Origin: Tessaracoccus lacteus
GTDB lineage: Bacteria; Actinomycetota; Actinomycetes; Propionibacteriales; Propionibacteriaceae
Length of the DNA stretch: 64,000 nucleotides
Direction: 5' to 3'
NCBI RefSeq assembly: GCF_029917005.1
Contig: NZ_CP123967.1
Coordinates: forward strand, 1,116,001 to 1,180,000
Positions within the stretch are counted from its first letter, which is position 1. Every line of letters begins with the position of its first letter. A program made the position numbers and the translations under genes. Under the pieces are notes generated by a model. That model was not told the origin of the DNA and did no database searches. It saw nothing but the letters and a program-made list of their open reading frames with translations. This document shows positions 2,224-32,618 of this stretch, piece after piece.

Positions 2224-4264
2224 TCGCCAGGTCCCAGGCTCCGACGGTCAGGGCCTTGCCCTCCGCGAGCTCGACGCCGTCCAGCACCGAGCGGCCGGCG
2301 ACGGGGGAGCCGATCGTCACGGTGGAGCCGGAGTAGTTCAGCAGGTAGGTGACGTCGCGGCCGCGGCCGTTGGTCCCGCGCCGGACGGTGACCGTCCCCG
2401 CCAGGTCCTGCGGCCAGGACCACAACCCGGCCTCACGCAGCACCAGCTCGAGGACGCCCCGCAGCACCTCCTGCGATGTCACGGTCGCCACATACGTGGC
2501 GGTGCCGTCGCCGAACCGGTTTCGCGTGACCGCGGCGTAGTCGGACCACGCCGGGTGGTCGTAACCGGCCAGGACGTCGGCGCCTCGCGGCACGAGCAGC
2601 TCCAGCAGCCTCCCGGCGGCCGGATCGGCGCCGTCGACCAGCGGCGCGAGCGCCTCGCCCGGCGCCAGCAGCGCGCCGTCGGGCCTGGTGAACTGGTTGT
2701 ACGTCATGCCGAAGACGTCGGTCAGCGCGTGCGGCGCCCGGTCGTGCCAGACCTTGACGTGCTCGTCGGCCACGGCCGTGCGGAGCGTCGAGATCAGGTG
2801 GCCGCCGCGCTCGACGAAGGCCCGCAGCGACGCCAGCGTGTTCTCCGACGCCGTGTACAGCGCCGGGGTCAGCAGCACGTCGTACGCCGTGAGATCCGCG
2901 TCGACGGGGACGAAGTCCACCTCGACGTTCAGGTCGAACAGCGCGTCGTAGACCCAGCGGAGCACGTCGTTGTACGTCGCCGACGGCCCCGCGAGCTCCG
3001 GGAAGCCCGTTTCGAGCGTGAACCACTTCAGCGCAGTGAGGGCCTCGTTGCTCACCATCACTGCGACGCGGTTGGCCTTGCGCAGGTGCAGCAGCGAGGG
3101 CGAGTGCGCGGCCCACTCGCGCCCGACGACGGCGGCCTCGTCGTAGGTGGGGTTGGGCTCGAAGTCGTGAGACAGCAGCCCCTTCCAGTACGTCTCGAAG
3201 GAGTTGTGCAGCGAGTGCCAGTGCCAGTACATGACGCCGTCGGCGCCGCTGGCGAGGTGGCTGTAGGCCTGCAGCCGCAGCTGGCCGGGGTAGGGGAGCC
3301 AGCCCATCTGGCCCTGGGCCTGGGTCTCGAGCACGAGGTAGTTCGCGCCGCCCTTGATCGAGCGCGCCATGTCGCCGCCGAACGCGATCTCGCGCCCGGT
3401 CAGCTGCGACTGTGTCGGGTGGTAGATGTCGACGCCCGCCAGGTCGACCGTGCGGGCGGCCGTGAAGTGGTCCGCCGCGGGCTGCAGCCCGTAGGACCAG
3501 CCCGGCGCCCAGTCGAAGTCGAAGTTCTGCGTGACGAACTGCTCCTCGCGCGTGTACTCGCGCACGATGCCGGCCTGCCAGCCGAGGAAGTTGTCGACCA
3601 GCGAGCGGCGGAACTCGTCCCAGGCGGCGCCGAGCGAGCCGTTGATCGTGCCGCGCACGTCCGGGAAGTCCTCCCAGGCGTCGATGCGGTTGGACCAGTA
3701 GGCCAGGCCGAACGCGTCGTTCATGGCCGCGAGGTCCCCGCCGAAGCGGTCCTTCAGGTGCTTGACGAAGACGCGCTGCGCCCCGACCGAGGCGGTGTCG
3801 TAGTACTTGGTCTCGTTGTCGACCTGGAAGCCGATGATCGCGGGATGGCCTGCGACGTGGCTCAGCAGCGTGCGCATGGCCCGCTCGGCGTGGAACAGGT
3901 ACGCCGGCGACGTGATGTCCATGATCTGGCGGGCGCCGTAGCGGGCCTCGCCGCGGGACGTCTCGGCCAGCACCTCGGGGTGCGAGGCGACGAGCCAGGC
4001 CGGCACCGCGTACGTCGGGGTGCCGACGATGACCTTCATCCCGGCCGCGGACATGGTCTCCAGCGCCTTGTCGACGTGGCTGAGGTCGAAGACCCCGGGC
4101 TGCGGCTCGAGCGAGCTCCAGGTGGACTCCGCGATGCGCACGACGTTCAGCCCGGCGTCGCGCATCATCTCGGCGTCGGTCTCGACCCTGTCGTAGGGCA
4201 GGTACTCCTCGTAGTAGGCCGCCCCGTACAGCAGGTAGTCGTTCGTCGCACGGTTCGTCGTCAC
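2210..4264 (-). CDS. GH42 beta-galactosidase
   Basis: A 684-residue protein matching the length and architecture of glycoside hydrolase family 42: a (beta/alpha)8 barrel at about 10-390, a trimerisation domain at about 390-610 and a small C-terminal beta domain. The acid/base is E151 in QVDNETKYY. The nucleophile is E313 in YLVLETQAQGQ, with MGW just after. It hydrolyses terminal beta-D-galactosides and is cytosolic (no signal peptide). The start is GTG at 4264 with a purine-rich GAGAGAG just upstream. Two palindromes lie between this gene and def (4281-4311 and 4309-4323), suggesting sugar-responsive control. It probably has its own promoter, since def ends about 100 bp upstream. Confidence 0.93.
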   Translation of the reverse strand: MTTNRATNDYLLYGAAYYEEYLPYDRVETDAEMMRDAGLNVVRIAESTWSSLEPQPGVFDLSHVDKALETMSAAGMKVIVGTPTYAVPAWLVASHPEVLAETSRGEARYGARQIMDITSPAYLFHAERAMRTLLSHVAGHPAIIGFQVDNETKYYDTASVGAQRVFVKHLKDRFGGDLAAMNDAFGLAYWSNRIDAWEDFPDVRGTINGSLGAAWDEFRRSLVDNFLGWQAGIVREYTREEQFVTQNFDFDWAPGWSYGLQPAADHFTAARTVDLAGVDIYHPTQSQLTGREIAFGGDMARSIKGGANYLVLETQAQGQMGWLPYPGQLRLQAYSHLASGADGVMYWHWHSLHNSFETYWKGLLSHDFEPNPTYDEAAVVGREWAAHSPSLLHLRKANRVAVMVSNEALTALKWFTLETGFPELAGPSATYNDVLRWVYDALFDLNVEVDFVPVDADLTAYDVLLTPALYTASENTLASLRAFVERGGHLISTLRTAVADEHVKVWHDRAPHALTDVFGMTYNQFTRPDGALLAPGEALAPLVDGADPAAGRLLELLVPRGADVLAGYDHPAWSDYAAVTRNRFGDGTATYVATVTSQEVLRGVLELVLREAGLWSWPQDLAGTVTVRRGTNGRGRDVTYLLNYSGSTVTIGSPVAGRSVLDGVELAEGKALTVGAWDLAIIES

Positions 4265-4280
4265 GGCGCTCTCTCTTGTC

Positions 4281-4311
4281 AGCTCGCCCTCGTTGGCGAT
4301 GAGGGCGAGCT
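4281..4311 (-). promoter_or_regulatory. 11-bp perfect inverted repeat upstream of GH42 gene
   Basis: AGCTCGCCCTC (4281-4291) and GAGGGCGAGCT (4301-4311) are perfectly complementary with a 9-nt loop. It lies 17 nt upstream of the GH42 GTG. It could be an operator, a leader hairpin, or a terminator for def, which ends at 4371 on the same strand; there is no T-tract on the GH42-proximal side. Confidence 0.5.
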
Positions 4312-4323
4312 TACCAAGTAAGC
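4309..4323 (-). promoter_or_regulatory. Putative repressor operator upstream of GH42 gene
   Basis: GCTTACCAAGTAAGC is a perfect 6-bp inverted repeat with a 3-bp spacer, overlapping TAAGCGCTA, which resembles half of a LacI-family operator. No LacI gene is in the window; the nearest regulator is the TetR at 1388-2026. Function inferred from position and symmetry only. Confidence 0.4.
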
Positions 4324-4370
4324 GCTAGATAAGCGATGGTGGAGGCGACGGGACCGCAGTGTCGGACGCC

Positions 4371-22298: not shown

Positions 22299-23080
22299 GC
22301 CCTCGCGCGAGCTCGCCGGCGCCGGTCCAGCCAGGCTGCTCGACATGGTCGAGGGCCGCTCCAAGAGCGTGTTCAAGACCTGGCTGGCCGAACGAGACCA
22401 GGCCTGGCGAGACAGCGTGGAGGTGGTCGCGATGGACGGCTTCACCGGGTTCAAGACCGCCACTACCGAAGAGTTGCCCGACGCGGTCGCGGTGATGGAC
22501 CCCTTCCACGTCGTCCGCCTCGCCGGCGACGCCCTCGACAAGTGCCGCCGCCGGATCCAGCAAGACCTTCACGGCCACCGCGGCCGGGCCGGTGACCCGC
22601 TGTACTCCGCCCGCCGCACCCTGCACACCGGCACCGACCTGCTCACCGACAAACAGAAGACCCGGCTCGAGCAGCTGTTCGCCGACGACGCCCACGCCGC
22701 CGTCGAGGTCACCTGGGCGGCCTACCAGCGAATGATCATCGCCTACCGCGAGGCTGACCCTGCTCGCGGCCGCGACCTGATGAACAACTTGATCGCCAGC
22801 CTCAGCAACGGCGTCCCGACCGCGCTCGTCGAACTCCGCTCGCTCGGCCGAACACTCAAGAACCGAGCGGCTGACGTCCTTGCCTACTTCGACCGGCCCG
22901 GCAGCTCCAACGGCCCCACCGAAGCGATCAACGGCCGCCTCGAACACCTCCGAGGCTCCGCACTCGGCTTCCGGAACCTCACCAACTACATCGCCAGATC
23001 ACTACTCGAGGCCGGTGGGTTCAGACCTCAGCTACACCGTGGATTGTGATGAGCCGCTTTACCCTCGATCGTGAAGAGCC
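22299..23080 (+). mobile_element. ISL3-family insertion sequence, 5'-truncated (right copy)
   Basis: A transposase reading frame (about 250 codons, stop at 23047-23049) begins directly after ohyA without a start codon: ELAGAGPARLLD, MVEGRSKSVFKTWLAE, then AMDGFTGF and VMDPFHVV (two catalytic Asp) and GPTEAINGRLEHLRG (catalytic Glu). The N-terminal zinc-binding and HTH parts are missing. Past the stop the sequence runs to GTGAAGAGCC (23071-23080), the complement of GGCTCTTCAC, matching ISL3-type terminal repeats (GGCTCTTC...). No left terminal repeat is present, so the copy cannot transpose on its own. An internal ATG at 22345 could start a fragment protein. Confidence 0.85.
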
Positions 23081-23109
23081 CTATTTCTTTTCCATCAATG
23101 AGACGGGCG

Positions 23110-23138
23110 TTGCGTTCCCGGTTTCTTCCTGCTAGGTT
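23110..23138 (+). promoter_or_regulatory. Promoter of the Cys-leader operon
   Basis: TTGCGT (23110-23115), 17-bp spacer, TAGGTT (23133-23138). The -10 overlaps the left arm of the inverted repeat GGTTTCCC/GGGAAACC (23135-23142 / 23158-23165). The predicted start point is about 23145, some 20 nt before the leader ORF. Confidence 0.5.
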
Positions 23139-23165
23139 TCCCGTACAGCCACTTGAAGGGAAACC
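23135..23165 (+). promoter_or_regulatory. Inverted repeat over -10 and leader ribosome site
   Basis: GGTTTCCC and GGGAAACC are perfectly complementary 8-mers 15 nt apart. The left arm covers the -10 and the right arm covers the Shine-Dalgarno (GAAGGGA, 23155-23161) of the leader ORF. It could be a repressor operator or, if transcription starts further upstream, a hairpin masking the leader ribosome site. Confidence 0.45.
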
Positions 23166-23166
23166 C

Positions 23167-23253
23167 ATGAACGAGAACATGCACGGTCGCTCGGCCGCCG
23201 CGTCCTTCGTCATGCGAATGAGCCCCTGCCGCTGTTGCTGTCGCTTCTGCTGA
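23167..23253 (+). CDS. Cysteine-rich leader peptide (28 aa)
   Basis: An ATG with GAAGGGA 5 nt upstream opens a 28-codon ORF that ends SPCRCCCRFC-stop: five Cys in the last eight codons (TGC, TGT, TGC, TGT, TGC). Short Cys-rich leaders of this kind precede sulfur-assimilation genes in actinobacteria, where ribosome stalling at the Cys cluster under cysteine shortage relieves attenuation. About 200 nt of untranslated leader follow before the first structural gene. I could not identify the downstream structure that would respond to stalling. The peptide itself probably has no function beyond sensing. Confidence 0.75.
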   Translation: MNENMHGRSAAASFVMRMSPCRCCCRFC

Positions 23254-23457
23254 CCCGCCCGCAGCCACTGACACCGCTGTACGCCGGCCCGGTCTCGCAA
23301 CCGCAGCCATCTGCTAGGTCCTGACAGACCACCTGCGCCCCCTGCCGGGCGTTATTGAGTCACCCCCATTGCGTCATGAATGCAACATGCCCTTTTATCG
23401 GCCGAATTGCGGACCCTGGGTGGCGACGCATTCATTTCCTCAGATAAGGACTTCGGC

Positions 23458-24798
23458 ATGCCCGAATATGCCCATTCTCTCCGTGATGTCGATCAGGCTG
23501 CCCCACGTGAGAACCACGTGATCATCGCCTCGAGGGTCTTTCCCGCCACGGGTGCCGCAACCATCATCGTCGGGGCAGTCGTCACCGACGGCGACGGCAT
23601 CGTCTGGGTCGGTCCCGCCTCCGACCTGCCTCAGCGCTGGGCGGAGCAGGCCGTCCACCATCCAGGCGCGACGATCCTTCCCGGCCTCATCGAGACGCAC
23701 GCGCACCTTGGCTCGTACGCCCCGCGCCTTGACCCCCGGCCCGACCGCGACCGGGACGTGGCCCTTGTTGCCTTGTCATCGGCCGCCATGGCCCGTCAGC
23801 TCGCCTCCCTCGGCGTGACAACCGTCCAGAGCCTGGGGTCTCCCCACTATGCGGACGTCGCACTCCGCGACGCGATCGCCTCCGGGGTCCTCGCGGGGCC
23901 CAGGATCGTTGCCGCGGGGCCGCAGCTCACCACCACCGGCGGACATGCCTGGCGCAACGGCGCAGAGGTCGACTCCCTGAGCCAGATTCGAGCCCAGGTG
24001 CGGGCCCACCACAAAGCCGGAGTCGACGTGATCAAGGTGATGGCCACCGGAGGCTTCATGACCGCGGGCACCGCCCCGTGGCACGCACAGTTCACCGAGG
24101 ACGAGCTCCGCGCCGTGGTGGAGGAGGCCCACCGCCTCGGACACCACACCGCGGCTCATGCGCACGGTACCGAGGGAATCCGCCGAGCCGTCCGGGCCGG
24201 GTTCGACTACATCGCCCATGCGAGCTTCGTCGACGAGGCGGGGCGCACGGCGTTCGACAGCGAACTTGCCGACGAACTGGCCCGCAACGGAACCTTCGTG
24301 GACGTCTGCAGCCCGCCGTCCTGGCCCGCCGTGGCCGGTGAGACGATCGCTCCGCGGGCAGCGGAGCTGTACCGCCACGGCGTCCGGTTGGTCACTGGCC
24401 ACGACGTCGGTGCCGTGATCCCAGCCAGCGCCTTCCGCCACGGGCTCGAACAGCTTCACGAGGCCGGCCTGCCAACCACCGAGGTGCTTCTCTCTGCCAC
24501 GTCGCGTGCCGCGGCGGCCGTCGGGCTGGCGGGCCGCACCGGCGTGCTGGCGCCGGGCTACGCAGCGGATCTCATCGTCGTCGACGGCGACCCGACAACT
24601 GACCTCGCGGCGCTGGGCAACCTGCGCTTCATTCTCACCGACGGGCGGCGGTTCACCCCGCAGGCCGTCGAGCCCTTCGACCCGCACCGCCTGCACCCAC
24701 CGGGCGGTGGAGGCCCACAGGAGGCCCGCGCCGCCTACGCGGAGGACCTCACACGCCGACGAGCGCATCCCGATCCCATCCCTCAACCCATCGCCTGA
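23458..24798 (+). CDS. Metal-dependent amidohydrolase
   Basis: 446 residues of the amidohydrolase superfamily (imidazolonepropionase/prolidase-like branch). Metal ligands: H81/H83 in LIETHAHLG, a Lys in DVIKVMATGG (K193, possibly carboxylated), H234/H236 in TAAHAHG, H254 in YIAHASF, and D316 in TGHDVGA. The C-terminal strand GYAADLIVVDGDP is typical. No signal peptide. The ATG at 23458 is chosen because AAGGA lies 7 nt before it; an in-frame ATG at 23380 has no ribosome site. First structural gene behind the Cys leader, so it may hydrolyse an amide or dipeptide bond in the imported sulfur compound. The substrate cannot be read from sequence. Confidence 0.85.
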   Translation: MPEYAHSLRDVDQAAPRENHVIIASRVFPATGAATIIVGAVVTDGDGIVWVGPASDLPQRWAEQAVHHPGATILPGLIETHAHLGSYAPRLDPRPDRDRDVALVALSSAAMARQLASLGVTTVQSLGSPHYADVALRDAIASGVLAGPRIVAAGPQLTTTGGHAWRNGAEVDSLSQIRAQVRAHHKAGVDVIKVMATGGFMTAGTAPWHAQFTEDELRAVVEEAHRLGHHTAAHAHGTEGIRRAVRAGFDYIAHASFVDEAGRTAFDSELADELARNGTFVDVCSPPSWPAVAGETIAPRAAELYRHGVRLVTGHDVGAVIPASAFRHGLEQLHEAGLPTTEVLLSATSRAAAAVGLAGRTGVLAPGYAADLIVVDGDPTTDLAALGNLRFILTDGRRFTPQAVEPFDPHRLHPPGGGGPQEARAAYAEDLTRRRAHPDPIPQPIA

Positions 24799-24816: not shown

Positions 24817-25911
24817 ATGTCCACCCTGACCGATGCTCTCGAGAATGACGTGCGCTCCCGACCGGCGCGCGTCTCCACAGCCTCGTTCCCGGAGACCAAC
24901 GTCGAGCAGACGCCCGACGGAGCATTCCGGCGCCAACGCAACTGGTTCACCACGCGCTTCGGCGAAGGTGACGCACGAGTGCGCCCTGAGGCCGGGCGCT
25001 ACCTCCTGCTCGGCAACCCCGGATGCGGCTGGAACCGTCGTCAGCTCATCACGCTGCGGCTCCTCGGCCTCACCGAGGCCGTCCCCTTCGTGCTGCTCAC
25101 GGGCCGTGACGACAAGGGGTGGCGCATCGCTCCCAGCGGCAATGATCTCGCCCAGCGCTTCGGCAGCAACCTTCTCAACGACTTCTACCGCCGCACCGAT
25201 CCCAACTTCGGCGGCCGTGGCACCTCGCCGACTGTCATCGATTCCGTCACCGGCACCGTCGTGACCAACAACTACCACCCGCTCAGCCTGGACTGGGAGA
25301 CCGCCTGGGCTCCGTTCCACAGGGCTGGGGCCCCCGACCTGTACCCCGAGGCGCTCCGCGCGGAGATCGACCTGCTCAATCAGCAGATCTTCGACGACGT
25401 CAACAACGGCACGTACAAGGTGATCTTCGCCACCAACCCCGAGGCCGCCAGGGCTGCGAAGACAGTCTTCGAGGCGCGACTCGCCGACTACGACTTCCGC
25501 CTCTCCTCTCGTCGGTATCTGTTCGGCGAGCAGCTCACCGACTCCGACATCCGCCTGTTCGTGACGCTCTCCAGCTTCGAGCGCGGCTACCGCCCCGGGA
25601 TCGCCCGCATCTTCGGTGAGGAGAACACCGCGCGGGTGCAGGACTTCCCGAGCCTGTGGGCCTACGCCCGCGACCTGTTCTCCCAGGGGTTCGTGGACGA
25701 CCGGGAGCTGTACTTCCTCGGCCTGCTCCCCGGGCCGTCGGGCGACTACCTCGAGGGCAGCCTTGTGGTCGGCGACGCACCGCTGCCGACTCCCGAGGAG
25801 TCCCTGGCCGCATGGCGCGAGCCTCACGGGCGAGATGCCCTTGGCGGATCGCCGCTGTACTCCGGCCCCGGCGGCGGCGGCAGCTACGAGTTGTGGCACT
25901 TCGCCGACTGA
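24817..25911 (+). CDS. Ecm4/Xi-class GST-like oxidoreductase
   Basis: 364 residues resembling glutathionyl-hydroquinone reductases (YqjG/Ecm4). The N-terminal thioredoxin fold has C70 in LLLGNPGCGWNRRQLI, where the family usually has CPWAHR. Next come DPNFGGRGTSPTVIDSVTGT and an all-helical C-terminal domain with YLFGEQLTDSDIRLFVTL. Family members remove a thiol from aromatic conjugates using the active Cys. Actinobacteria use mycothiol rather than glutathione, so the thiol here is uncertain. AAGGAG precedes the ATG; 18 bp after the amidohydrolase. In context it may release the thiol part of an imported conjugate (inference). Confidence 0.8.
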   Translation: MSTLTDALENDVRSRPARVSTASFPETNVEQTPDGAFRRQRNWFTTRFGEGDARVRPEAGRYLLLGNPGCGWNRRQLITLRLLGLTEAVPFVLLTGRDDKGWRIAPSGNDLAQRFGSNLLNDFYRRTDPNFGGRGTSPTVIDSVTGTVVTNNYHPLSLDWETAWAPFHRAGAPDLYPEALRAEIDLLNQQIFDDVNNGTYKVIFATNPEAARAAKTVFEARLADYDFRLSSRRYLFGEQLTDSDIRLFVTLSSFERGYRPGIARIFGEENTARVQDFPSLWAYARDLFSQGFVDDRELYFLGLLPGPSGDYLEGSLVVGDAPLPTPEESLAAWREPHGRDALGGSPLYSGPGGGGSYELWHFAD

Positions 25912-25945: not shown

Positions 25946-27304
25946 ATGATCGGACAAGACACCACCCACATCCCGGAGGACCTGCTGCGGTGGGGGCTCG
26001 GCGACGGGCGTGAGCTGCGGCTCGCGCGCACCGACGAGTTCGACCTCGTCGGAGCCCTCCTGCAGGAGGCGTTTACCGCCGGATGCTGGGTCACCCCGCG
26101 CTATCTGCAGCACCTGGGCGACATCGCGAGCCGCGCCGCAGTCTCCCACGTGTGGGTGGTGTCCGACTCCGTCGGTCTGCTCGGCGCCGTCCTCACGCCG
26201 AAGCCACAGCACCACCGCCCCCGGTTGTTCACCTTCAACGTGCTGGGCGTCGCACCCCGCGGGCGCGGGCTCCAGGTCGGCTGGGCGCTGGTGGACCACA
26301 GCGTCGCACTGGCCAGCGCACTCGGGTACGCAGGCCTCGAGCTGCGCTCCAGCCCGCAGATGACCGCGGCCCACGCGCTGTACCGGCGCTACGGGTTTGT
26401 CCGGAGACCCGAGTTCGAGACCGCGGTCGTCGACTCCGGCCAGCGGCTCTTCGCCTTCACCTACCGCGTCGTCGATCCGGCGCCGACGACGCCCATCCCC
26501 TACCAGGAACCAGAGGTGGCCTGGGCCTTCCCCGGCCACCACGAGGAGGAAGCAGTGGACATCACAGAACTGAGGCCCATCGCCAGCAGCCCGCCCGAGC
26601 CCGGCGAGGACGCCCTCGGCGCCCTGCCGCCGGGAGCAAGGGTGCGCATCGACCCCACGAGTCTGCGGGGACGGGCGGCGGCCGCGGCGCTGACGGTCGC
26701 CGGGAGCGGTCAGCTGATCGACTGGGTTGATGCCCCGACCGCCGACCCGGAGCTCATCGTTGACGGCGCCGTCGTGCACATCGACCCCGCGACCCTCGCG
26801 CGCCGGGCCCTCCGGGGGACCCCGTGGTACCAGGCCGAGCAGGCTGCGCGCGTCGACCCGGTCGTCGCGCAGATCAGGGACGATCTGGTCGCCGGGCTGG
26901 AGGACGCGGTCTTCGCCGAGGACCCGGACACACGCACGGCCTCGCTTCGCCTCTTCTACGCCCGCCTCGGCAGGCTCGAGGCGTCGCTCGGCCGGGGGCG
27001 GTGGCTGGTGGGAGACAGGCCGTCGGTCGCGGATCTCGAGCTCTTCGCCGTGCTCATCGCGCTGGACCTGCAACAGCGCGCCCATCTCGCTCCCGGATCC
27101 GCGGCGGTGGCCGACTATCCTCGGCTGTTCGAGCTCGGCCGCAGGCTGCTCGCCGCCGGGGTGCTGCCACCCGAGATCCTCGCGGCGGTCGGGCTGGGTG
27201 GCACCGGCGAGTTGCTCTGGGGCGAGCCCCTGCCCGTCGAGGGGATCGATGACCTGCGCGCCGCGTGGCTGGCGCCAGCGAGCCAGCGCGAGGCGGTCGC
27301 ATGA
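25946..27304 (+). CDS. GNAT acetyltransferase fused to a GST-C-like domain
   Basis: 452 residues with two parts. Residues 1-175 are a GNAT fold: FTFNVLGVAPRGRGLQVGWA covers the acetyl-CoA pyrophosphate loop, and HALYRRYGFVRRPEFE is motif B. Residues about 205-445 lack the thioredoxin half of a GST but show the helical C-terminal fold with WLVGDRPSVADLELFAVLIA, like the Ecm4-type partner upstream. The junction is a Pro/Glu-rich linker. I know of no characterised protein with this fusion. It could acetylate an amino group of a thiol compound such as cysteine. The stop overlaps the next gene's ATG (ATGA), so it is translationally coupled to the importer. Confidence 0.75.
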   Translation: MIGQDTTHIPEDLLRWGLGDGRELRLARTDEFDLVGALLQEAFTAGCWVTPRYLQHLGDIASRAAVSHVWVVSDSVGLLGAVLTPKPQHHRPRLFTFNVLGVAPRGRGLQVGWALVDHSVALASALGYAGLELRSSPQMTAAHALYRRYGFVRRPEFETAVVDSGQRLFAFTYRVVDPAPTTPIPYQEPEVAWAFPGHHEEEAVDITELRPIASSPPEPGEDALGALPPGARVRIDPTSLRGRAAAAALTVAGSGQLIDWVDAPTADPELIVDGAVVHIDPATLARRALRGTPWYQAEQAARVDPVVAQIRDDLVAGLEDAVFAEDPDTRTASLRLFYARLGRLEASLGRGRWLVGDRPSVADLELFAVLIALDLQQRAHLAPGSAAVADYPRLFELGRRLLAAGVLPPEILAAVGLGGTGELLWGEPLPVEGIDDLRAAWLAPASQREAVA

Positions 27305-28284
27305 CCGCCGTGATGGACGCCACGGGACGCCGACGCACCGGCAGACGCCTCGCCTGGCTCATCCTCCGCCGCCTCCTCGCGGCGGTCCTTGTGCTGTGGG
27401 TCGCGGTCACGCTGACCTTCATCGCTGTTCAGCTCACGCCCGGTGACACGGTGTCTCTGCTGCTGGGAGAGAACCGCAACGACCCTGAGCTCAGGGCTCA
27501 GACGATCGCCAGATGGGGACTCGACGAGCCGGTGTGGGTGCAGTACCTCACCTACCTCGCCCGCATCCCGAGCGGTGACCTCGGCATCTCGTACACCCTG
27601 CGCCGACCGGTCGCCGACCTGATCGCCGCAGGCATCGGCCCGACGCTGCAGCTCACGGCTGTCGCCGCGATCGCGGCCATCGTCATCGCGGTGGTCGGCG
27701 CCGTGGCCACGACCGCAGCGGTTCCGGGCCTTCGGCGCGCGGCGGGGGCGGTCGAGCTGGTGCTGTTGTCCGCGCCCCCGTTCTGGCTCGCCATCGTCCT
27801 GCTGTGGGGCATCAGCTTCCAGCTCGGCTGGTTCTCCATCGTGGAGCAGGGCAGCTGGCAGGCCCTCGTGCTGCCCGCAGCATCACTCGCCCTGCCCATC
27901 GGTGCCTACCTCACCCAGGTGCTGGTGGAGGGCATCGACCGGGCCATGGAGCAGCCATTCATCACCACCGCACGCTCGCGGGGCATCTCGCAGTTCGCTG
28001 CCAGAGCCCGCCACGCGCTCCGGCACGCCGCATTGCCGGCCATCCATCTCCTCGGCCTCATCGTCGGGTCGTTGCTCGGCGGGGCCGTGATCGTGGAGCA
28101 GGTCTTCGGCCGCCCCGGCCTCGGCCAGCTGGCCGTCGATGCGGTCACGGTCAAGGACATCCCCCTGATCCTCGGCGTCGCGCTCGTCAGCACGGCGGCG
28201 TTCGTCGTGGCCTCCACGGCCGCCGACATCGTTGCTCTCTCAGCGGACCCCCGGACGCGCGTCGCGGCGGGAGGATCACGATGA
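27301..28284 (+). CDS. Peptide-type ABC transporter permease (DppB/GsiC-like)
   Basis: 327 residues, six or so membrane helices, BPD_transp_1 fold. The N-terminal RRLLAAVLVLWVAVTLTFI and extracellular loop LGENRNDPELRAQ...GLDEPVWVQYLTYL are typical of the first permease of Opp/Dpp/Gsi importers. The EAA-like coupling loop is FITTARSRGISQFAARARHA. ATG at 27301 overlaps the previous stop by 4 bp and its own stop overlaps the next gene likewise. Family importers carry dipeptides, oligopeptides, nickel or glutathione. Confidence 0.92.
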   Translation: MTAVMDATGRRRTGRRLAWLILRRLLAAVLVLWVAVTLTFIAVQLTPGDTVSLLLGENRNDPELRAQTIARWGLDEPVWVQYLTYLARIPSGDLGISYTLRRPVADLIAAGIGPTLQLTAVAAIAAIVIAVVGAVATTAAVPGLRRAAGAVELVLLSAPPFWLAIVLLWGISFQLGWFSIVEQGSWQALVLPAASLALPIGAYLTQVLVEGIDRAMEQPFITTARSRGISQFAARARHALRHAALPAIHLLGLIVGSLLGGAVIVEQVFGRPGLGQLAVDAVTVKDIPLILGVALVSTAAFVVASTAADIVALSADPRTRVAAGGSR

Positions 28285-29150
28285 CCAGCCAGACCATCTC
28301 GGTGTCCGGCCCCTTCACGCTCCGCAGGGTGGGCTCGTTGGGCCTCAGGACCCGGTGGGACGCAGTCCTCGCCGCGGCCGTACTCGCCCTCACGTTCGTG
28401 GCGGTGGTCGCGCCAGGGCTCCTCACCTCGGGCGACCCGCTCGCCGCTGATCCCCTGGCAGCCCACCAGCCGCCCAGCCTCGCCCACCCCGCGGGCACCG
28501 ACATCCAGGGTCGCGACGTCCTGGTCCGCATCATCTACGGCGCCCGACACTCGGTGCTGATCGGGCTGGGGGCGACACTCGTTGCGGTGCTGCTCGGCGT
28601 GTCCCTCGGGGCGCTGGCCGGCGTGGCCAGGGGATGGATCGATCAGGCGGTCTCTCGGCTCGTCGACGTCGTCGCCGCCTTTCCCGAGGTACTCCTCGCA
28701 CTGCTGATGATCGCCTTCACCGGCCGAGGCACGCTCAACCTCATCCTCGCCCTCGGCGTGGCAGGGCTGCCCAAGTACGCGCGCATCATCCGCGGCAACG
28801 TCCGGCTCGCCACAGCCTCCGGCTATGTGGAACAGGCAGCCACCTTCGGCGTCTCACGGACGCGGAGTCTCTTCAGGCACGTCCTGCCCAACGCGCTCGG
28901 TGCGCTCCCGGTGATGGTCACCATCGGCTTCGGAGGCGCGATCATCGGGTCCTCCAGCCTCAGCTTCCTCGGACTCGGCCCGCAGCCTCCCACCGCTGAG
29001 TGGGGGCTCATGCTGTCGGAGTCGCGCGCCTACCTGCGCCAGGCCTGGTGGACCGGCGTGTTCCCAGGCCTCGCCCTCACCACCATCGTCATCGCGGCCA
29101 CCGCGCTCGGCCGCCAGCTCCAGACCGCATACGAGAGGCGCAACCGATGA
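28281..29150 (+). CDS. Peptide-type ABC transporter permease (DppC/GsiD-like)
   Basis: 289 residues, about six helices. Carries the DppC landmarks HPAGTDIQGRDVLVRIIYGA, RLVDVVAAFPEVLLALLMIA and SSLSFLGLGPQPPTAEWG, with the coupling loop YVEQAATFGVSRTRSLFRHV. Forms a heterodimer with the upstream permease. ATGA overlaps on both sides. Confidence 0.92.
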   Translation: MTSQTISVSGPFTLRRVGSLGLRTRWDAVLAAAVLALTFVAVVAPGLLTSGDPLAADPLAAHQPPSLAHPAGTDIQGRDVLVRIIYGARHSVLIGLGATLVAVLLGVSLGALAGVARGWIDQAVSRLVDVVAAFPEVLLALLMIAFTGRGTLNLILALGVAGLPKYARIIRGNVRLATASGYVEQAATFGVSRTRSLFRHVLPNALGALPVMVTIGFGGAIIGSSSLSFLGLGPQPPTAEWGLMLSESRAYLRQAWWTGVFPGLALTTIVIAATALGRQLQTAYERRNR

Positions 29151-30769
29151 ACGCCCTGATCGAGCTCCGCAACCTCAACGTCACCTTCGAGACCCGTCGA
29201 AGGACAGTGCACGCCGTCCGGGGCATCGACCTTGAGATCGGTCGGGGCGAGGCGGTGGCTGTGGTGGGGGAGTCGGGCTCCGGCAAGTCCGTCACCGCCC
29301 GCACCCTCGTCGGGCTCACGGGGCAACGGGCGAGCATCACGGCCGACGAGTTCACGGTCCTTGGCCGCGACGCGCGCAGGTTCACCGAACGCCAATGGCG
29401 CTCGGTACGCGGCCGGCACATCGGGTTGGTGCTGCAGGACGCCCTCAGTTCGCTGGACCCGCTGCGGACGGTGCGTCGCGAGGTCGGAGAGGTCATCCGG
29501 GTCCACCGCACCGTGCCCCGACCTGAGGTGGGCGGAGCGGTGATCGAGGCGCTCGACAGCGTCGGGTTCCCCGACCCGGAGCGACGCGCCGACCAGTTCC
29601 CGCACCAGCTGTCCGGAGGGCTCCGCCAGCGGGCCCTGATTGCGTCGGCCGTGGCCGGTCGCCCCGAGCTCCTGATCGCGGACGAGCCCACCACCGCCCT
29701 CGATGTCACCGTCCAAGCCCAGATCCTGGCGCTGCTGCGTCGCCTTCGTGAGGAGGGCACCGCGATCCTGTTCATCTCGCACGACCTCGCCGTCGTGTCG
29801 CAGCTGGCCGACCGGATCCTTGTCATGCGCGACGGGGCCGTGGTGGAGCAGGGGCCGACCGCTGACGTGCTTGCCTACCCGCAGCACGAGTACACGAGGC
29901 AACTGCTGCGCGCGGTCCCATCCGCAGCCACCCGCGGGCAGCGGCTCGGCCTCGGGCCTGCGAGCCCCGGCCCGCACCCTGCGCCCGTTGCGGGGCGCGG
30001 CGGGCCCATCGTGCTGAGCGCCACAGACGTGCGCCAGTCGTTCGAACTGCCCCAAGGCGGGAGCCTCGCCGCCGTCGACGGCGTCAGCCTGGTGGTCCAC
30101 CGCGGCCGCAAGGTCGGCATCGTGGGGGAGTCCGGTTCGGGCAAGAGCACCCTTGCCCGCGTCCTGCTCGGCCTGCAGCGGCCGGACGCTGGCACGGTGC
30201 TCGTCAACGGACGCCCATGGGGGGCCGACATCGCCGACCGGAGGGCGGTCCAGTTCGTCTCCCAGGACCCGCTCGGTTCCTTCGACCCGCGCTACAACGT
30301 CGGCGAACTCATCTCAGAGCCGCTCCGCGACGTGCTCGATGCACGCGATCGGGCCACACGCGTCGAGGAGGTGATGCGCTCCACGCACCTGGACACCGAA
30401 CTGCTGACCGCCATGCCCCGCGCCCTGTCCGGCGGGCAGCGCCAGCGCGTGTCCATCGCCAGGGCGCTCGCGCTGAGGCCCGCTGTGCTCGTATGCGACG
30501 AGCCGGTCTCTGCCCTCGACGTCTCCATCCAGGCCGAGATTCTCGACCTGCTCGATGAGCTGGTCCGGACCACAGGAACGTCGCTGGTGTTCATTTCGCA
30601 CGACCTCGGCGTGGTGCAGCACCTGGTCGACGACGTCCTCGTGATGAGCCACGGACGCATCGTCGAGGAGGGAGACGTGACGACGGTTCTCACCGAGCCG
30701 CGGCACCCCTACACGCGGGAACTGCTGGCGGCAGTGCCCCGGCTGAGCGGACATCGGAGCGCCGCATGA
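29147..30769 (+). CDS. Peptide-type ABC transporter, fused double ATPase
   Basis: 540 residues containing both NBDs in one chain. NBD1 has Walker A GESGSGKSV, signature LSGGLRQR and Walker B LLIADEPTTALD. NBD2 has GESGSGKST, LSGGQRQR and VLVCDEPVSALD. Each ends in the oligopeptide/dipeptide-type extension (HEYTRQLLRAVP, HPYTRELLAAVP). All ATPase motifs look functional. Powers the permease pair upstream. A 102-bp gap with a small hairpin separates it from the binding-protein gene. Confidence 0.93.
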   Translation: MNALIELRNLNVTFETRRRTVHAVRGIDLEIGRGEAVAVVGESGSGKSVTARTLVGLTGQRASITADEFTVLGRDARRFTERQWRSVRGRHIGLVLQDALSSLDPLRTVRREVGEVIRVHRTVPRPEVGGAVIEALDSVGFPDPERRADQFPHQLSGGLRQRALIASAVAGRPELLIADEPTTALDVTVQAQILALLRRLREEGTAILFISHDLAVVSQLADRILVMRDGAVVEQGPTADVLAYPQHEYTRQLLRAVPSAATRGQRLGLGPASPGPHPAPVAGRGGPIVLSATDVRQSFELPQGGSLAAVDGVSLVVHRGRKVGIVGESGSGKSTLARVLLGLQRPDAGTVLVNGRPWGADIADRRAVQFVSQDPLGSFDPRYNVGELISEPLRDVLDARDRATRVEEVMRSTHLDTELLTAMPRALSGGQRQRVSIARALALRPAVLVCDEPVSALDVSIQAEILDLLDELVRTTGTSLVFISHDLGVVQHLVDDVLVMSHGRIVEEGDVTTVLTEPRHPYTRELLAAVPRLSGHRSAA

Positions 30770-30871: not shown

Positions 30872-32551
30872 ATGCCCAAGACCCATCGCCAGCTCAGCAG
30901 GCTGCACAGGACCGCGATCGTGGCCATCGGTGCCGCGCTCGCCCTTCCGCTGGCCGCCTGCGGGACCGGCCAGACCAGTCAACCAGCTCCGGCGGCCTCG
31001 TCGGCATCCCTCACCGAAGGGGGCACGCTCTACTGGGCGGTCGAGACGAAGCTGCAGACGGTCAACCCGCAGCGCAACGGCCAGGACAAGGCGACGCCCA
31101 TCCTCCGCAACGCCTTCGACTCCTATCTGTACCGCACCGAGTCCGGCGAATACGAGCCCTGGCTCGCCCAGGCATACGACGTCTCCGACGACGGCACCAC
31201 CGTCACCCTGACCCTGCGTGATGGCGTCACCTTCAGTGACGGCGCCAAGCTGGACGCGGACGCCGTCGTGGCGAACTTCGACAAGATCACCTCCGAGGGC
31301 TACCTCGCGTCGATCCCCGGAGGCCTTCGCTTCCTCACGAGCTACGAGAAGACCGCAGAAGACCAGGTCACCTTCACGCTCGAGAAGGCCGACGCGCTGT
31401 TCCTCCTCTACCTGTCGGCGACCGCATCCACCCCGCTGTCGCCTGACACGCTCACACTCGACCAGAGCGTCCTCGAGTCCGGTGGCCCCGAGCTCTCCGG
31501 CATCGGCCCGTTCACCATCGACGAGTTCACGCCCAACACGGAACTGTCGTTCGCCAAGCGGCCGGACTACGAGTGGGCGCCGGAGTCGATCGCAGGAGGA
31601 CAGAAGGCGGCTCACCTGGACGAGGTGGTCTACCGCACCTTCGCAGAAGGTGCGACGCGCACGGGGGCCCTGCAACAGGACCAGGTGCAGATCTCCTCCG
31701 ACATCCAGCCGGTGGACGTCGCGGTGTTCGAGGACAGCGACCAGTTCGACTACCAGCGCAACTACGTGTCCGGGCTGCCCTACACGCTGTACTTCAACGT
31801 GTCCAAGGCGCCACTGAATGACGCCGCGGTCCGGGAGGCCTTCGTCAAGGGGTTCGACCTCGACGCGATCCTCTCGGCCATCTACAACGGCGCGTTCGAC
31901 CGGGCCACGGCTCCGGTCAGCGCCCGCGGCCCCTTCGCGGACCCGTCATCGCTCGACGACTACGCCACCGACATCGAGTCGGCCAACCGGCTGCTCGATG
32001 AAGCAGGCTGGACCGAGAGGAACAGCGACGGGATCAGGGTGAAGGACGGCACAACCCTGACCATCCGTGCGGTCTCCGGGGCGCCGTACGTCCGGGAGAG
32101 CCGGGACCAGCTCAACATCGCCATCGGGGCGGCCCTGAAGCAGAACGTCGGGATCGACTACCAGTTCCAGATCGAGGACACGGGCACCGAGACGGCTCGC
32201 ACCGAGGCCAACGATTACGAGGTGTTCGACAACTCCTACGGAGGCGCTGACCCGGCAAGCGGCCTCGATCTGCTCTACCACTCCGACCCGAGCCGCGGAT
32301 TCATCGCGAGGGGCAAGTTCCAGGACGCCACTCTCGACTCGCTGATCGACGAGGGACGTTTCACCACGGACCTCACGACCCGTAAGGAGAACTACACGGA
32401 GCTCCAGCACCTGGTGACCGGCAACTTCTGGGTTCTGCCGCTGTACCAGACGCAGGACAACCTCGCCTCGAGTGGGAAGGTGCACGACATCACCATCGAC
32501 AAGGCGACGGGCCAGCCCTTCGGCGCCTTCACCATCTGGCTCGAGAGCTGA
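30872..32551 (+). CDS. Peptide-type ABC transporter substrate-binding lipoprotein
   Basis: 559 residues of the SBP_bac_5 (cluster C) fold. The signal peptide RTAIVAIGAALALPLAAC ends in a lipobox with C30 as the lipidated Cys. Landmarks: TPILRNAFDSYLYR, PWLAQAYDVSDDGTTVTLTL, DAVVANFDKI, YTLYFNVSKAPLNDAAVREA and DNSYGGADPASGLDLLYHSD. Anchored outside the membrane, it captures the substrate for the upstream permeases and ATPase. AAGGAAC precedes the ATG. Ligand unknown; its place in a Cys-leader operon suggests a sulfur compound. Confidence 0.92.
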   Translation: MPKTHRQLSRLHRTAIVAIGAALALPLAACGTGQTSQPAPAASSASLTEGGTLYWAVETKLQTVNPQRNGQDKATPILRNAFDSYLYRTESGEYEPWLAQAYDVSDDGTTVTLTLRDGVTFSDGAKLDADAVVANFDKITSEGYLASIPGGLRFLTSYEKTAEDQVTFTLEKADALFLLYLSATASTPLSPDTLTLDQSVLESGGPELSGIGPFTIDEFTPNTELSFAKRPDYEWAPESIAGGQKAAHLDEVVYRTFAEGATRTGALQQDQVQISSDIQPVDVAVFEDSDQFDYQRNYVSGLPYTLYFNVSKAPLNDAAVREAFVKGFDLDAILSAIYNGAFDRATAPVSARGPFADPSSLDDYATDIESANRLLDEAGWTERNSDGIRVKDGTTLTIRAVSGAPYVRESRDQLNIAIGAALKQNVGIDYQFQIEDTGTETARTEANDYEVFDNSYGGADPASGLDLLYHSDPSRGFIARGKFQDATLDSLIDEGRFTTDLTTRKENYTELQHLVTGNFWVLPLYQTQDNLASSGKVHDITIDKATGQPFGAFTIWLES

Positions 32552-32565
32552 TCCCACGGCGCCCA

Positions 32566-32609
32566 GACTCTGGCCCCGGATCGCCACCGGGCGGTCCGGG
32601 GCCAGAGTC
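32566..32609. terminator. Bidirectional terminator between SBP gene and purT
   Basis: GACTCTGGCCCCGGA (32566-32580) pairs perfectly with 32595-32609. An inner CGCC-ACCG-GGCG stem extends it to about 20 bp with a tetraloop. It lies between convergent genes, so it can serve both. No T-tract. Confidence 0.8.
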
Positions 32610-32618
32610 GTCGCAGCA

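Follow-up and report, generated by a model that had tools for sequence, protein, structure and literature searches.

A putative cysteine-sensing leader peptide upstream of an importer and GST operon in Tessaracoccus lacteus and its relatives

The 64,000-nucleotide stretch of Tessaracoccus lacteus DNA analyzed here, referred to below as the window, contains an operon whose genes lie on the same strand with short gaps between them (Table 1). A prolidase-like amidohydrolase gene comes first and is followed by the genes for a Xi-class GST (GSTX), a GNAT acetyltransferase fused to a GST C-terminal domain, and the components of an Opp-type importer. With an importer and with prolidase-like and Xi-GST enzymes, the downstream genes may serve cysteine metabolism. 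In one relative (G527, locus L225, oriented positions 3371-4347) a cysteine synthase gene, cysK, adjoins the GNAT-GSTX pair; by eye, the frame of this cysteine synthase has an in-frame TAG near its 5' end. Its products probably import a compound that contains cysteine or a thiol and then open it. The GNAT-GST fusion is unusual, as 7 of 394 genomes of the class matched it at 1e-15, the own genome among them and the other six only partially. The hairpin at the end of the operon is long and GC-rich and adjoins a convergent gene; two sub-threshold Rfam matches at this hairpin were not believed.

Table 1. Features of the leader and operon region, in window coordinates
Feature	Position	Strand	Basis or remark
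Predicted promoter, -35 TTGCGT (23110-23115), 17 nt, -10 TAGGTT (23133-23138)	23110..23138	+	3/6 matches per hexamer
8-bp inverted repeat, GGTTTCCC (23135-23142) / GGGAAACC (23158-23165)	23135..23165	+	overlaps predicted -10 and SD; putative role
Shine-Dalgarno GAAGGGA of leader ORF	23155..23161	+	sequence
Leader ORF, MNENMHGRSAAASFVMRMSPCRCCCRFC*	23167..23253	+	28 codons + TGA
Cys-codon tract (C R C C C R F C), proposed stall site	23227..23250	+	sequence
204-nt leader between ORF and operon	23254..23457	+	C over G
Shine-Dalgarno AAGGAC of first operon gene	23446..23451	+	sequence
Amidohydrolase, Xaa-Pro dipeptidase/arginine carboxypeptidase-like (prolidase-like), first gene	23458..24798	+	family match; ortholog alignment supports start
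Xi-class GST / glutathionyl-hydroquinone-reductase-like protein (GSTX)	24817..25911	+	family match
GNAT acetyltransferase fused to GST C-terminal domain	25946..27304	+	family match
Opp/Nik-type ABC permease 1	27304..28284	+	family match; start approximate
Opp-type ABC permease 2	28281..29150	+	translation read by eye; start approximate
Fused double ABC ATPase (OppDF-like)	29144..30769	+	family match
Family-5 substrate-binding lipoprotein	30872..32551	+	nearest model TIGR04028, below its cut-off
Strong GC-rich hairpin at operon end, terminator candidate	32555..32618	+	sub-threshold microRNA-model match shows hairpin

A part of an ISL3-type transposase gene (22345-23049) and an oleate hydratase gene lie upstream of the operon. 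The preliminary description had noted an ORF of 28 codons with a good Shine-Dalgarno (SD) sequence, five Cys codons among its last eight and a leader of roughly 200 nt behind it. This description was confirmed. The Cys codons are numbers 21, 23, 24, 25, and 28, and 204 nt separate the stop codon from the ATG of the amidohydrolase. Across 129 SD-preceded short-ORF ends in the window, the leader ORF is the only one with at least five Cys in the last eight residues, where the binomial expectation is 0.0004, and the runner-up, one other ORF, has four. In the window and in L227 of the sister genome alike, the ISL3-type transposase part immediately precedes the leader; its end is identical at 64 of 90 positions between the two, versus 349 of 358 from the promoter to the operon start.

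We compared the regions upstream of orthologous operons. In the sister genome (G033), the leader ORF is identical at 86 of 87 positions, the single change being AAC to AGC, and the 204-nt leader at 197 of 204. The GNAT-GST protein, searched against genome contigs, returned two loci, one of them partial (L182) and the other (L181) in a Propionicimonas MAG with the operon. Six proteins of L181 align with those of the window at 48-82% identity (permease 2 left out), and its leader ORF likewise has 28 codons and Cys near the stop, with a peptide different from that of the window. L181 is on the same contig as L210, and the family as surveyed includes this MAG, although Propionicimonas belongs to Nocardioidaceae according to NCBI. 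Of 198 family genomes, 18, the own included, have a close GST ortholog, with 25 matches listed; 20 regions covering 22 of these matches were compared, two more were added later, and the last match is the window itself.

This comparison, which had been proposed together with the ORF, was positive. In 17 of the 22 clusters, a short ORF whose tail bears Cys stands ahead of the operon, whichever gene leads (L209, L210, L212-L216, L223, L224, L226-L228, L229-L232, and L237, where L229-L232 are upstream extensions of L217, L218, L220, and L221), and leaders occur in all seven genera having a GST match. Where importer genes come before the GST, in four regions, the leader stands before the permease every time (twice at the strict and twice at the relaxed level defined below). 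The core of an SD sequence lies ahead of 16 of 18 leaders, that of the window included, and is missing in L231 and L232. The remaining five clusters have no clear leader: L211 is a solitary GST, L219 and L236 have the GST within another gene cluster, L222 has no leader between the contig end and the GST, and L225 has a doubtful ...APCCR* ahead of the interrupted cysK.

Counted strictly, as ORFs of 10-50 codons with an SD and at least three Cys in the last 12 residues, within 450 nt upstream, leaders were found in 10 of 20 ortholog regions with 0.045 expected, and three strict hits fell elsewhere, in 596,690 other strand-bases. Without the two strict hits known beforehand (G033 and Propionicimonas), the count was 8 of 18 with 0.041 expected. 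Six more regions had leaders at a relaxed level (two Cys, some without an SD core), and the two last regions added one strict match. Because the relaxed level was picked after the misses were seen, the enrichment figure is taken from the strict level. The first strict version had a length limit of 60, later 50, and an extra cluster filter. The leaders include several close pairs (window/L227, L223/L224, L229/L230, L231/L232, and L228/L237) and are thus not independent of one another. Since the loci are related and the 450-nt span was set after hits had been seen, the Poisson values overstate the strength of the result, and the count of seven genera is a safer guide.

The leaders also differ from ordinary genes in their choice of Cys codon. 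Over 17 leaders (the window and 16 others), UGU, the rare Cys codon, was used 41 times and UGC 20 times (41/61 UGU), compared with 43 and 267 (43/310 UGU) in gene-like ORFs, a mechanically assembled set of ten window ORFs and the longest ORFs with GC3 > 0.8 in the loci, to which L227 contributed none. Other pyrimidine-ending codons in the same leaders are mostly C-ending (T 42, C 160; 42/202, p 4e-11 versus Cys, and p 9e-8 with one leader per close pair), which indicates that the bias belongs to Cys. L237, outside the count, uses UGU for all four of its Cys codons, and the window leader for two of five. Selection for UGU could reflect either slow decoding or the needs of pairing. The bias is an inexpensive, easily checked marker with which to look for further Cys sensors.

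Taken as a whole, the sequence features make it highly probable that the ORF at 23167-23253 encodes a cysteine-sensing leader peptide that acts as a ribosome-stalling attenuator on the importer/GST operon. The earlier suggestion of a leader peptide on which stalled ribosomes report a lack of cysteine is supported by the Cys-tail leaders in the ortholog clusters. Ribosomes would initiate at the SD of the leader ORF itself and read through the first 20 codons. During a shortage of Cys-tRNA, they would halt within the C-R-C-C-C tract, close to the end of the ORF, and this stall would change what becomes of the mRNA and allow expression of the downstream operon; if cysteine is plentiful, the ribosome would finish and depart, and operon expression would stay low. 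In the window, the coupling would be either translational or a block of Rho-dependent termination in the C-rich 204-nt leader. Translation of the leader ORF, the response to cysteine, and this coupling step are what we infer from the sequence.

For translational coupling, the cost of opening the SD and start codon was modeled for 17 leaders, with the full RNA and with the RNA downstream of a stalled ribosome, using 30 shuffles each. Stalling lowered the modeled cost by 7.0 kcal/mol in L223, 9.0 in L224, 3.4 in L228, 6.8 in L229, and 2.6 in L230, drops that were matched by at most one of the 30 shuffles in each case. L215 had a drop of 1.3 kcal/mol, which 13% of shuffles reached, and in the remaining eleven leaders the change was small or negative (-5.7 in L232). 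The window copy is one of these eleven, since stalling barely alters its opening cost (0.5 kcal/mol, equaled by 17% of shuffles).

The Cys tract itself may be the masking strand in some of the relatives. The tail pairs with the ribosome-binding site (RBS) over 10 bp in L223 and L224, despite spacers of 245 and 138 nt, and tail-to-RBS complementarity as good as that of L229, L230, L226, and L216 was found in 0.5-3.5% of control stretches. The complementarity was less marked in L214 (7.7%) and L228 (9%), and the other leaders did not rise above chance level, among them that of the window, where 61% of control stretches were as good. Between L229 and L230, the paired stretch carries a compensatory change from C-G to U-A, and the next position changes from G-C to G-U. 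In a partner-swap test, the pairing signal was modest, with values of 0.003 over all 17 loci and 0.036 when 13 representatives were used. Because the tract is complementary to the SD or start codon of the first gene in some relatives, by prediction, a ribosome parked on it would free the ribosome site. These results thus point to a likely translational switch in some genera, while a masked ribosome site opened by stalling was not found by modeling in the window copy. In the relatives, the pairing between the Cys tract and the start region is a direct handle on how stalling becomes expression.

Alternatively, the same sensor could be coupled through Rho, in that a ribosome that has finished the ORF bares the C-rich leader for Rho and a stalled one shields it, as in tna. 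We regard this as plausible, if short of probable. The scan for terminators, which covered the window and L181, revealed no intrinsic terminator between the leader ORF and the operon, and the window leader is no more structured than its shuffles, whereas those of L181 (z -2.55) and L224 are. Because the leader is C-rich, lacks an intrinsic terminator, and is not unusually structured, Rho is a candidate in the window copy, where the model also gave no SD switch. In 23254-23438, C amounts to 38% and G to 25%, placing this segment at the 96.5th percentile of same-length stretches on both window strands, and five of 17 leaders exceed the 99th percentile of their own locus in C over G, although these control stretches are other than 5' leaders. 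Against this coupling, C is about equal to G in four leaders (L210, L214, L223, and L232). Rho coupling has been suggested for mycobacterial cys leaders in passages of an earlier survey, whose authors called the prediction weak (PMC1262725).

The preliminary description had also noted an 8-bp inverted repeat spanning the -10 and the SD and had suggested that, as an operator or hairpin, it may add a second layer of control to ribosome stalling. The repeat is real, with two perfect 8-bp arms around a 15-nt spacer, and a repeat of this kind occurred in 3% of shuffles of 23130-23253 and 1.25% of shuffles of 23100-23167; the whole window contains 82 such repeats. As evidence, it is weaker than the Cys-tail ORF. 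The palindrome is unchanged in the sister genome, which says little because the sister sequence is nearly identical throughout, and it is missing from the 15 further leader loci tested; different inverted repeats, of at least 7 bp, are present in six of these. An RNA hairpin over the SD was rejected because a transcript beginning about 7 nt past the predicted -10 would not include the left arm, an argument that takes the start from the -10 position of a promoter that a stricter consensus scan missed. The proposed second layer was therefore not upheld, as the repeat is confined to the window and its sister and the predicted transcript begins beyond the left arm. A DNA operator at the palindrome, where a repressor would bind as an additional control, is conceivable but unlikely, even with its perfect arms across the -10 and SD; a loose counterpart seen by eye in the 5' region of L210 (GTTTTCC / GGAAGAC) lies downstream of the predicted -10. 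Separately, GTATAC-like palindromic stretches were seen by eye near predicted promoters upstream of the leaders in L215, L216, L223, L231, and L232, and these are possibly an operator common to the five loci.

Two readings dispense with sensing altogether. Leader genes near structural genes are described as common in Actinobacteria in part of a published survey (PMC4833913), and translation of the ORF could aid that of the operon by reinitiation. The same part of the survey gives a distance peak of 10-11 bp, compared with 204 nt here and 113-297 nt across 17 leaders, and reinitiation leaves the Cys tails and the UGU bias unexplained, making it very improbable. We consider it equally hard to credit that the product is a functional Cys-rich micro-peptide, which would bind metal or be modified. 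Five Cys within eight residues could suit such a peptide; between genera, however, the peptides, of 14 to 30 residues, have little in common but the Cys tail, with variable spacing, the window peptide has no NCBIfam or Pfam match, and no modification enzyme appeared among the operon genes run against families. A chance ORF can be practically dismissed, for although short ORFs are abundant and two further window ORFs pass the looser level of three Cys in the last 12 (shuffle mean 0.7), 5-of-8 Cys ends were absent from 30 dinucleotide shuffles of the 64-kb window and leaders recur across the ortholog clusters.

Leaders of this type were also sought beyond the GST orthologs. With the 28-residue peptide as a query over 394 class genomes, only low-scoring alignments were found besides its own match, and none of the 29 that were placed in context resembled a true leader, suggesting that peptide similarity is unfit for finding such leaders. 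The pattern TGYNNNTGYTGYTGY gave 32 matches in the own genome, and the 30 examined included no other leader; apart from the leader itself, they had no start codon before the motif, lay far from a stop codon, or fell in frames of at least 185 codons. At 29 loci of GST paralogs in the class (~35-46% identity), no leader was found upstream of the GST, and two strict hits lay elsewhere. The 18-kb stretch around cysH/cysD of the own genome has no leader upstream of these genes and two strict hits elsewhere in the stretch. Over 30 cysH/cysD loci, the own included, with 1.5-kb flanks, there were two strict hits, neither of them plausible as a leader. In another family of the order, an SD-led Cys-tail ORF (L157:1471-1521, MILRMRISLCCRCCCR*) stands before a gene for a 137-residue protein without a Pfam match.

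A probable cysteine-sensing leader ahead of this uncharacterized operon leads to the prediction that the operon supplies cysteine or sulfur. We tentatively extend this to a family-wide cysteine 'ribulon', possible rather than probable, in which UGU-keeping leader ORFs would govern an unrecognized import and opening pathway for cysteine- or thiol-conjugated compounds and one RNA stretch would be both hungry-codon sensor and anti-ribosome-site strand. If this were true, the leader would reveal what an otherwise unassigned operon does.

Canestrari et al. reportedly described polycysteine leaderless sORF attenuators in Mycobacterium smegmatis in 2020. As in the window, these are short ORFs that stand ahead of an operon, in first place, and have their Cys codons in a contiguous cluster, and their expression is tied to cysteine supply via ribosome speed, which is what we propose for the window leader. 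Cysteine-responsive attenuation by such polycysteine sORFs is also described in three further papers (PMC9031893, PMC13236596, PMC9094748). Masking of the ribosome site, reportedly part of the M. smegmatis mechanism, is possible for the Cys tract in some relatives and was not found in the window copy. The mycobacterial sORFs belong to another bacterial family and a different operon, and they are leaderless, whereas the window leader is SD-led with a predicted 5' UTR of ~20 nt; this UTR and the SD cores point away from leaderless translation in the leaders studied here, whose transcript starts are predicted. The UGU bias is a feature noted in the present leaders.

Comparable leaders have been predicted elsewhere. 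Seliverstov et al. 2005 (PMC1262725) predict leader peptides with Cys runs ahead of the cys operons of Mycobacterium and P. acnes and ahead of Bifidobacterium cbs. Like that of the window, these have a run of Cys codons near the stop and no conserved terminator, but they precede the cys operon or cbs rather than an importer/Xi-GST/amidohydrolase operon. The uORFC-8-2 motif upstream of cysS in Rhodobacterales, as presented in part of its source (PMC8632094), is likewise a uORF whose Cys codons have been interpreted as a sensor that works by stalling; it has an intrinsic terminator and tandem Cys at codons 14-15, mostly UGC, in contrast to the window copy, where no terminator was found, and to the prevalence of UGU over the family. 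A classical transcription attenuator of the trp/his type would also include an intrinsic terminator, and none lies between the window ORF and the operon. Among the matches listed in a literature search of titles and abstract beginnings, which took in few subscription journals, none dealt with this operon or with UGU bias in leaders. Overall, the analysis gives good support to a cysteine-sensing leader of a known kind, SD-led and ahead of an operon that our searches had not shown under such control. It takes this class of leader ORF beyond the cys genes of mycobacteria to an importer/GST operon of a different actinobacterial family, in which most of the leaders are SD-led.
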